A DNA stretch of 64,000 nt, taken from contig NZ_CP016782.1 in the NCBI RefSeq assembly GCF_002288365.1, forward strand, positions 682,001 to 746,000, read 5' to 3'. Shown piece after piece: positions 58,495 to 60,640 of the stretch. The translations under genes were made by a program, and so were the position numbers. Position 1 is the first letter of the stretch, and each line of letters starts with the position of its first letter. Under the pieces are notes generated by a model. It searched no databases and had not been told where the DNA came from. It saw nothing but the letters and a program-made list of their open reading frames with translations. Source of the stretch: Candidatus Planktophila limnetica. GTDB lineage: Bacteria; Actinomycetota; Actinomycetes; Nanopelagicales; Nanopelagicaceae.

Positions 58495-59076
58495 TTATTG
58501 GCCTTCAGGAACCGCACTTGGCGATAGGACCGCTTCAGCCACAGCCTTCATACTTAATCGCCGATCCATGGCAGCTTTTTGAATCCATGAGAAAGCTTCT
58601 GGTTCACTTAAATTTAAGGCTTGCATCAAAATACCTTTTGCTTTGTCAACTAATTTGCGCGTTTCTAATCGTTCATGCAAATCTGCAACTTCATCCGCTA
58701 ATGATTTCATTTGTGTGTGGCGGCTAATGGCAATTTCAATAGATGGAATCAAATCATTGATAGTAAATGGTTTAACAACGTAGGCCATGACACCGGCATC
58801 ACGCGCACGATCTACTAACTCTTTTTGACTAAACGCTGTGAGCATCAGAACAGGAGCAATTGAAATAATCTCTTGCGCGGCAGATATTCCATCTAGCACC
58901 GGCATCTTCACATCAAGTATTGCTAAATCTGGCTTGTGTTCTTTTGCTAATTCAATCGCTTCTGCCCCATTAGTTGCTTGGGCAACAACGTCATAGCCAG
59001 ATTCGGTAAGCATTTCTACTAAGTCCATGCGAATGAGCGCTTCATCTTCGGCGACCAAAATTCGTAATTTGTTCAT
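58495..59076 (-). CDS. pdtaR: ANTAR-domain response regulator (PdtaR-like)
   Basis: A 193-aa regulator with an N-terminal receiver domain, with acidic residues in VAEDEA, phospho-acceptor D55 in AILDVKMP and K102 in YVVKPF. Its C-terminal ANTAR RNA-binding domain spans about residues 124-185 (LETRKLVDKAKGILMQ...EAFSWIQKAAMDRRLSMKAVAEAVL). In relatives, PdtaR is phosphorylated by PdtaS and acts as a transcription antiterminator by binding RNA. The partner kinase is not in this window. The start codon lies one nucleotide after the 3' end of a tRNA gene on the same strand, and there is no ribosome binding site. Confidence 0.95.
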   Translation of the reverse strand: MNKLRILVAEDEALIRMDLVEMLTESGYDVVAQATNGAEAIELAKEHKPDLAILDVKMPVLDGISAAQEIISIAPVLMLTAFSQKELVDRARDAGVMAYVVKPFTINDLIPSIEIAISRHTQMKSLADEVADLHERLETRKLVDKAKGILMQALNLSEPEAFSWIQKAAMDRRLSMKAVAEAVLSPSAVPEGQ

Positions 59077-59077
59077 G

Positions 59078-59150
59078 TGCCTCGAGTCGGATTCGAACCG
59101 ACACTATGCAGTGTTTGAGACTGCCCTCTCTACCGTTGGAGTACCGAGGC
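59078..59150 (-). tRNA. tRNA with CAA anticodon (Leu) but class I short variable loop
   Basis: A 73-nt cloverleaf. The acceptor is GCCTCGG/TCGAGGC (last pair G-U). The D stem CTC/GAG has a C13-A22 mismatch and a loop with GG. The anticodon stem GCAGT/ACTGC is perfect with loop CTCAAAC, giving anticodon CAA for UUG codons. The variable loop is only ATAGT, the T arm is GTCGG-TTCGAAT-CCGAC, and the discriminator is A. A14, A73 and U33 are as expected for leucine. Bacterial tRNA-Leu normally has a long variable arm, so this form is unusual. CCA is not encoded. It lies between pyk and pdtaR. Confidence 0.8.
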
Positions 59151-59200: not shown

Positions 59201-60640
59201 TTAACGATAGGCAGGGGCAACGCCACCAACAGCGTCACCAACTATATGTACGCGCATCGCATTTGTTGATCCTGGAATTCCAGGAGGAGAGCCCGCAACA
59301 ATCATTACGTTTTCTCCCTTCTTCACTCGTCCGCTTTCAATCAAAAGAGAGTCGACTTGTTTAACCATGTCATCTGTGTGCTTAACCATTTCAGAGATAA
59401 CAGGTTCCACGCCCCAAGTAAGTGCCAATCGGTTATAGGTTCCAACTTCTGGAGTCAGTGCCAAAATTGGAATAGCCGAACGTAAACGAGACATGCGACG
59501 AGCGGAGTCTCCACTTTGCGTAAAGGCAACTAAATACTTCGCTCCAACAATTGCACCTACCTCAGTGGCAGCCTTTGTAATTGCGCCACCTTTGGTGCGA
59601 GGTGCATTAATGATTGGACGAATACGTTCTAGGCCGCCTTCTTCAGTCTTTTGAATAATGCGAGCCATAGTTTCAACGGCTTCTATCGCAAATTCGCCAA
59701 CACTTGTTTCGCCAGAGAGCATCAATGCATCGGCACCATCTAATACAGCATTGGCACAATCTGTGGCCTCTGCGCGAGTGGGACGTGAATTAGTAATCAT
59801 CGAATCTAACATCTGTGTTGCAACGATGACTGGCTTGGCAGCATCCCGGGCAAGTTCGATGCAATGTTTTTGAACAAGTGGAACATCTTCAATAGGTAGC
59901 TCCACGCCAAGATCGCCGCGAGCAACCATTATTCCATCAAAAGCCGCAACGATTCCTGGCAAGTTTGTTACTGCTTGAGGCTTTTCAATCTTTGCAATAA
60001 CTGGAACTCGAATGCCTACTTCATCCATGATGCGATGAACATCCTTAATATCATCGGCGCTTCTAACAAATGAAAGGGCAATAAAATCTGCGCCTGCTTT
60101 TAATCCCCACCGTAAATCCTCAATGTCTTTTTCTGAAAGCGCAGGAACGGATACTGCAACACCGGGCAGATTGATTCCTTTGTTATTGCTAACTGCCCCC
60201 GGTTCGATCACCTTAGTAATAACATCTGTCTTGGTCACCGAAGTTACTTCGACAGTTACTTTTCCATCATCGATTAATATGCGATCTCCTGCTTTGCAAT
60301 CCCCCGGTAAACCCTTGTAGGTGGTGCCTACGCGATCTTTTGTACCTTCAATATCATCGGTAGTAATTGTAAAAACATCGCCTCGGGATAAATCATGCGG
60401 ACCATTAGCAAATCGAGCCAATCTGATTTTTGGGCCCTGTAGATCAACGAGTATCGCCACAGGCACGCCAGCTTTTTTTGCAGCGTTTCGAACAGCATCG
60501 AGTCTGCTCTGGTGTTCTACGTAAGTTCCATGTGAAAGATTTAAGCGGGCCATATTCATACCAGCTGCAATTAGTTGCTCAACTTTGCCATCAGCTTCAA
60601 CAGCTGGTCCCATGGTGCAAACAATTTTCGCGCGGCGCAT
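59201..60640 (-). CDS. pyk: Pyruvate kinase
   Basis: It makes pyruvate and ATP from phosphoenolpyruvate. The 479-aa protein has RRAKIVCTMGPA at the start and the barrel motif IAKIEKPQAV with the active-site Lys. It also has MVARGDLGVELP for metal and substrate binding, and a C-terminal regulatory domain with GSPPGIPGSTNAMRVH. The small B domain is present (about residues 70-165). It lies 13 nt past the gltD stop. Confidence 0.97.
   Translation of the reverse strand: MRRAKIVCTMGPAVEADGKVEQLIAAGMNMARLNLSHGTYVEHQSRLDAVRNAAKKAGVPVAILVDLQGPKIRLARFANGPHDLSRGDVFTITTDDIEGTKDRVGTTYKGLPGDCKAGDRILIDDGKVTVEVTSVTKTDVITKVIEPGAVSNNKGINLPGVAVSVPALSEKDIEDLRWGLKAGADFIALSFVRSADDIKDVHRIMDEVGIRVPVIAKIEKPQAVTNLPGIVAAFDGIMVARGDLGVELPIEDVPLVQKHCIELARDAAKPVIVATQMLDSMITNSRPTRAEATDCANAVLDGADALMLSGETSVGEFAIEAVETMARIIQKTEEGGLERIRPIINAPRTKGGAITKAATEVGAIVGAKYLVAFTQSGDSARRMSRLRSAIPILALTPEVGTYNRLALTWGVEPVISEMVKHTDDMVKQVDSLLIESGRVKKGENVMIVAGSPPGIPGSTNAMRVHIVGDAVGGVAPAYR

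Follow-up and report, generated by a model that had tools for sequence, protein, structure and literature searches.

Class I tRNA-Leu(CAA) with a short variable arm in Planktophila and its exchange with class II genes in Actinomycetota

Results

In Candidatus Planktophila limnetica, UUG is very probably read by a working leucine tRNA of class I form, which lacks the long variable arm and, together with a similarly short tRNA-Leu(UAA), replaces the class II tRNAs for UUA and UUG. Its 73-nt gene lies on the minus strand at positions 59078-59150 of the window, the whole 64,000-nucleotide stretch of DNA analyzed here (45% GC), in a single-contig genome of 1,328,793 bases that is 99.76% complete.

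Structure and genomic context of the gene

The gene is supported by ARAGORN, which calls tRNA-Leu(CAA) at 59077-59150 on the minus strand, by its orthologues, and by the Rfam tRNA model RF00005, which matches 59078-59150 of that strand over model positions 1-71 of 71 with 54.2 bits (E 7.1e-9), above the gathering cut-off of 29 and hence within the family. The anticodon CAA, a reader of UUG, occupies 59115-59117 and is followed by A37. Where a class II tRNA would carry a variable arm of at least 10 nt, we found a loop of 5 nt, AUAGU (59107-59103), whose last base is U48. A14 and A15 lie at 59136-59137, A15 forming a leucine-type Levitt pair with U48, and the discriminator A73 lies at 59078; A15-U48 and A73 are named as determinants in passages of a 2023 review (PMC9976931). 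All bacterial tRNA-Leu determinants, that is A73, A14, A15-U48, G18G19 and A20a (the 20a numbering is our own), are present. The first-pass annotation had described a 73-nt class I cloverleaf with a CAA anticodon, a 5-nt variable loop, A73 and A14, naming no strand, and had proposed a covariance search; each of these features held up.

Pairing is complete in the anticodon and T stems; the acceptor stem contains one G-U pair, and the D stem consists of 3 bp plus a C13/A22 mismatch. Of the CCA end, the first C alone is encoded. A stand-alone fold recovers the acceptor, anticodon and T stems as well as the 3-bp D stem, with a folding energy that is only moderately unusual (z -1.91; an equally good fold in 10 of 200 shuffles). 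The argument for a tRNA therefore rests mainly on its conservation and on the covariance match.

The tRNA is flanked on the same strand by a 479-aa gene that we take to be pyk, encoding pyruvate kinase (59201-60640, 50 nt before the tRNA), and by a 193-aa gene, presumably pdtaR, encoding a PdtaR-like response regulator (58495-59076), whose ATG follows A73 after 1 nt. Strong matches to tRNA-Leu(CAA) occur in 21 of 24 same-genus genomes, and the three without a match (G016, G019 and G022) are all incomplete. The tRNA is near-identical across the genus. The comparison of the pyk-pdtaR gap in relatives, suggested at first pass, placed pyk just upstream in 21/21 matching loci and pdtaR downstream in 18/21; none was found in the other three, whose stretch stops at or shortly past the tRNA. 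Candidatus Planktophila versatilis MMS-IA-79 has an identical tRNA at the corresponding place between the two genes.

A single C separates A73 from the pdtaR ATG (window 59074-59078). Across 28 loci (L041-L062, L106, L123, L129, L141, L145 and L192), the pdtaR frame opens at this point in 20, despite a varying N-terminal extension; the ATG is present with a short frame in two (L049, at a contig end, and L053, with an early stop) and absent from six, one at a contig end (L061) and five with other sequence (L062 ends before pdtaR). Because the ATG lies 1 nt after the discriminator in these 20 loci, their arrangement suggests that tRNA 3' processing may yield a leaderless pdtaR mRNA: the 3' maturation cut would leave a message starting at AUG. 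C-ATG follows 4 of the 41 tRNAs of the genome and opens frames of 170 to 486 codons, the further cases being Ala(GGC), Ala(UGC) and Gln(UUG) (L016, L005 and L029), with frames of 310, 170 and 486 codons. In the genus-mate G014, it follows Leu(CAA) only, among 39 tRNAs.

The same abutment, seen in 20 of the 28 loci, would also suit a pseudogene or, as an option raised at first pass, a tRNA-like regulatory RNA, here tied to pdtaR. We consider this very improbable, since the cloverleaf is intact and scores above the Rfam cut-off, the leucine determinants are conserved, the gene hardly varies within the genus, and the genome would otherwise be left without any CAA tRNA. Moreover, of the 52 class I CAA loci belonging to other groups, 43 showed neither pdtaR nor pyk nearby (some of these stretches end near the tRNA).

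The short-armed tRNAs are the only dedicated UUA/UUG decoders found

A loose first look at the genome gave 103 tRNA candidates, all of which were scored with RF00005; 41 lie above its cut-off, and the next candidates reach 18.5 and 15.1 bits. ARAGORN assigns four of the 41 to leucine: Leu(UAG) and Leu(GAG), of class II with variable regions of 13 nt and 15 nt, and Leu(UAA) and Leu(CAA), of class I with 5 nt each. The short-armed tRNA-Leu(UAA), at G000:C1:189272-189344, is called by ARAGORN and matched by RF00005. Neither the RF00005 and ARAGORN set nor a separate class II pattern revealed a class II tRNA that carries UAA or CAA in this genome, so the second, normal class II tRNA-Leu(CAA) that the first-pass annotation had advised looking for did not turn up. 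Beyond these two short-armed tRNAs, we could find no dedicated decoder of UUA or UUG in the genome. The CUN codons would still be read by class II tRNA-Leu. G014, also a single contig, has the same four leucine tRNAs among its 39.

A normal class II tRNA-Leu(CAA) might have been missed, which would make the short gene an accessory tRNA; a loose first look could in principle overlook a gene, and one genome of the phylum (G319, see below) does hold CAA in both forms. We give this reading very little weight, given the gap between the 41 accepted tRNAs and the next score of 18.5 bits among 103 scored candidates, the absence of the class II YAA pattern from the genome, the matching set in G014, and the complementary anticodons in 54 of 55 genomes described below.

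The set also contains some odd members. L030 and L033 (G000:C1:872821-872894 and 867447-867520) are called Val(GAC) and have an Arg-like D arm with U or G at position 37; a normal Val(GAC) is present besides. Two low scorers, L039 and L040 (G000:C1:1036066-1036139 and 1070867-1070938; 42.6 and 35.2 bits), are called Ala(UGC) and Gly(ACC); neither gene has a counterpart in the 39-tRNA set of G014.

UUG and UUA match conserved leucines

The meaning of the codons was read from alignments of the genome's reading frames to translated loci of more than 58% GC, with every leucine codon of the query masked and sites scored where at least four homologues showed 90% agreement. A cleaned run of 13 frames and 131 alignments omitted three plus-strand window frames that may be antisense artefacts. 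In this run, leucine was matched at 25/25 UUG sites, at 38/42 UUA sites (two of the others being Ile and two Met) and at 68/73 CUN control sites. With the three doubtful frames kept (16 frames, 139 alignments), the counts were 25/25, 40/44 and 68/73, and the matching leucines in the homologues were mostly encoded by CUN. Both codons are common: among 530 leucine codons in the window frames with homologues, 130 are UUA and 105 are UUG. Because UUG and UUA sites match conserved leucine, the standard code holds and the short-armed tRNAs are predicted to deliver leucine at both codons, although a U34 tRNA could read UUG too, so that this test does not isolate the share of the CAA tRNA. Judged by function, the gene would count as a tRNA-Leu, as the sole CAA tRNA of a genome in which all 25 scored UUG sites match leucine.

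Leucine determinants in the short-armed genes

A14 and A73 are present in every one of 135 unique short-armed genes, and A15-U48 in 131; the search pattern itself prescribed G18, G19, A20a and the anticodon, which are thus no evidence in this count. The remaining four, all CAA genes (L131, titled Streptomyces; L138, titled Kitasatospora; L199 and L210), carry G15-C48 instead, a clean covariation that loses the E. coli-type pair, so that A15-U48 is not strictly kept. All four leucine tRNAs of the genome share A14, A15, U48, A73 and one extra nucleotide in the D region. These four bases and the same D-region length recur in the genome's tRNA-Arg(ACG), which differs at position 20; these features alone are thus not diagnostic. 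By identity at core positions within the genome, Leu(UAA) is nearest to Arg(CCG) (0.69) and Leu(CAA) is nearest to Leu(UAA) (0.62), values compatible either with loss of the arm or with recruitment of a different class I tRNA.

A tRNA charged with a different amino acid, with UUG reassigned or ambiguous, was another option of the first-pass annotation, and it draws on the missing arm, a feature by which leucine tRNAs are often recognized (as in passages of PMC7916415). The conserved leucines at all 25 UUG sites speak against it, as do the failure to find another CAA tRNA in the genome and the retention of A73 in all 135 and of A15-U48 in 131 of the unique relatives, and we find it scarcely credible. 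The same evidence, namely the leucine-matched UUG sites, the lack of a second CAA tRNA, and the kept cloverleaf and determinants, supports the remaining option, a divergent yet functional leucine acceptor.

Spread in Actinomycetota and beyond

A strict pattern for short-armed tRNAs with anticodon YAA matched 99 of 396 genomes spread evenly over Actinomycetota (our own included), a lower bound given the strictness of the pattern; a reversed control gave 0 matches. In a scan of named genomes, at least 117 loci carry short-armed YAA tRNAs. Of the 80 titled matches listed, 74 bear Actinomycetota titles, including Mycobacterium, Nocardia, Rhodococcus, Gordonia, Corynebacterium, Streptomyces, Kitasatospora, Bifidobacterium, Nocardioides, Microbacterium and Planktophila, among others. 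The other six listed are MAGs titled Christensenellaceae, Planctomycetota, Rokuibacteriota, Gemmobacter, Chloroflexaceae and Deltaproteobacteria (titles as given; contamination is possible). In the phylum of the MAG titled Gemmobacter (G435), none of 198 other genomes matches, so that G435 is the only match among 199. ARAGORN was applied to 148 pattern matches (L071-L217, comprising 30 loci from the phylum sample and 117 from named genomes, with two matches in L169) and called 147 of them tRNA-Leu, 95 UAA and 52 CAA, leaving one without a call.

Whether other Actinobacteria share the short-armed form had been left open at first pass; many do, and the UAA isoacceptor is likewise short. As short-armed CAA tRNAs are thus routine in the lineage, the claim that this gene is an oddity falls, while the finding itself becomes broader and is not voided.

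Several further observations concern the range of the short form. G025 combines class II UAA with class I CAA and a class I tRNA-Leu(UAG) (L303), so the short form extends beyond UUA/UUG. The Streptomyces phage Riptide (L226) also has a class I tRNA-Leu(UAG). Phages with short-armed tRNA-Leu (L222-L225) include Streptomyces phage Alone3 (CAA) and the cyanophages S-CREM1 and P-SSM7 (UAA), and a Felixounavirus carries a short-armed tRNA-Leu(UAA) with a slightly longer loop. A mycobacterial UAA query matches 194 phage records by sequence, arm length being no part of this count. In the Chloroflexaceae MAG (L169), some 250 nt separate short-armed Leu(UAA) from short-armed Leu(CAA), and the genome has a class II CAA at another site.

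Exchange with class II genes, anticodon by anticodon

A class II YAA pattern matched 310 of the 396 phylum genomes, with stray matches of the reversed control in 3/396; class II anticodons were read from the matches listed and, for 17 of the genomes, from a second search. A class II YAA tRNA accompanies the short form in 55 of the 99 class I genomes. In 54 of these 55, the anticodons of the two classes differ: 44 combine class I UAA with class II CAA, and 10 show the reverse. Only G319 departs from this, holding CAA in both classes besides class I UAA. No class II match was obtained in the other 44 class I genomes: class I supplies both anticodons in 20 of them, among which are all 14 members of group g4, and in the remaining 24 the strict pattern detects only one. 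Two class II matches never occur together in any of the 99. Thus, the short class I genes exchange with class II genes mostly one-for-one.

Eight further genomes were reached through the named loci. Four of six non-actinobacterial MAGs pair class I UAA with class II CAA, G438 has UAA in both classes, and in G434 a class II CAA accompanies class I forms of both UAA and CAA. The class II YAA pattern gave no match in the genomes of Planktophila versatilis and actinobacterium IMCC26103. In G345, where 10 of the 45 tRNAs were retrieved, the eight long tRNAs are all Ser, Tyr or Leu with GAG, UAG or CAG, and class I supplies CAA and UAA.

Discussion

Leucine tRNAs are classified by their long arm, and passages of a 2023 review give tRNALeu this arm everywhere except in animal mitochondria (PMC9976931), a rule that is broken by named Mycobacterium, Corynebacterium, Streptomyces and Bifidobacterium genomes with the short form. 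Passages of a review of non-canonical tRNAs place tRNALeu in class II (PMC7609411), and bacterial tRNA genes are called uniform, without structural diversity, in part of another review (PMC4033280). Among titles and abstract openings of open-licence PMC articles, we found no report of a short-armed bacterial tRNALeu; a subscription paper may have one. Annotation databases, we presume, very likely list these short-armed genes as tRNA-Leu.

The class II bacterial tRNA-Leu, such as E. coli tRNALeu and Streptomyces bldA, has a like leucine anticodon and is swapped with the short form anticodon by anticodon. Compared with the class II leucine tRNAs of the same genome, the short form shares A14, A15, U48, A73 and the extra D-region nucleotide and differs in its variable region of 5 rather than 13 or 15 nt. 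The animal mitochondrial tRNALeu(UUR) is likewise short-armed and reads UUR, and the human one is recognized through A73 and A14 according to passages of PMC9976931; that tRNA is organellar and served by a mitochondrial LeuRS, whereas the gene here is bacterial and folds into a regular cloverleaf. The tRNAscan-SE 2.0 paper, in the part that concerns it, describes a human tRNA-Leu-CAA without the arm (PMC8450103). That oddity is a recent tRNA-Met mutant whose small-RNA signal is very low and which may be a silenced pseudogene, whereas the gene here is conserved and the sole CAA tRNA. Allo-tRNAs are also unusual, and some have leucine anticodons; as passages of PMC7609411 have it, their acceptor and T arms measure 8/4 or 9/3, and two tested with leucine codons inserted Ser. 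The gene here has 7/5 arms, which sets it apart from allo-tRNAs, and is assigned to leucine.

The broadest reading joins several proposals: that class II tRNA-Leu for UUA and/or UUG was replaced by class I forms anticodon by anticodon across Actinomycetota (and for UAG too in one genome), that phages are possible vehicles of the swap, that this is an undescribed bacterial exception, and that in Planktophila the tRNA 3' cut gives a leaderless pdtaR mRNA. As a package, we advance it tentatively, rating its chance slightly below even. The short form allows a direct test of two questions, namely on which features of a tRNA LeuRS actually relies and how a synthetase keeps its accuracy with tRNAs of both classes, and it bears on tRNA annotation and on the choice of orthogonal tRNA-Leu pairs for this group.

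The genome contains a single LeuRS that scores above the family cut-off, and this enzyme most likely charges both forms by recognizing features they share outside the arm, namely A73, A14, A15-U48 and, within an enlarged D loop, G18G19 and A20a. In the simplest mechanism, the arm's absence would be tolerated because LeuRS reads these core features and ignores the arm. Passages of PMC9976931 are consistent with this: they give A73, A15-U48, G18G19 and A20a as the leucine identity of E. coli, with the anticodon and long arm not crucial, and report that E. coli tRNALeu variants without the anticodon arm and long variable arm stay active and that human mt-tRNALeu(UUR), for which A73 and A14 are the specifying bases, is charged although it has no long arm. 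The contrary view, that the variable arm is the major determinant for both SerRS and LeuRS, is taken in part of a 2021 review (PMC7916415).

A co-adaptation of LeuRS to tRNA class was considered and rejected. In a comparison of 26 chosen genomes, 9 of which gave no match at E 1e-150 (including all three g4 genomes taken in), one-piece LeuRS matches of similar length also occur where only class II was found (such as G043, G054, G059 and G251). The LeuRS of our genome (L218; G000:C1:988293-990734) has 826 aa, and a break in its alignment suggests that it lacks the leucine-specific insertion that precedes KMSKS in Thermus LeuRS.
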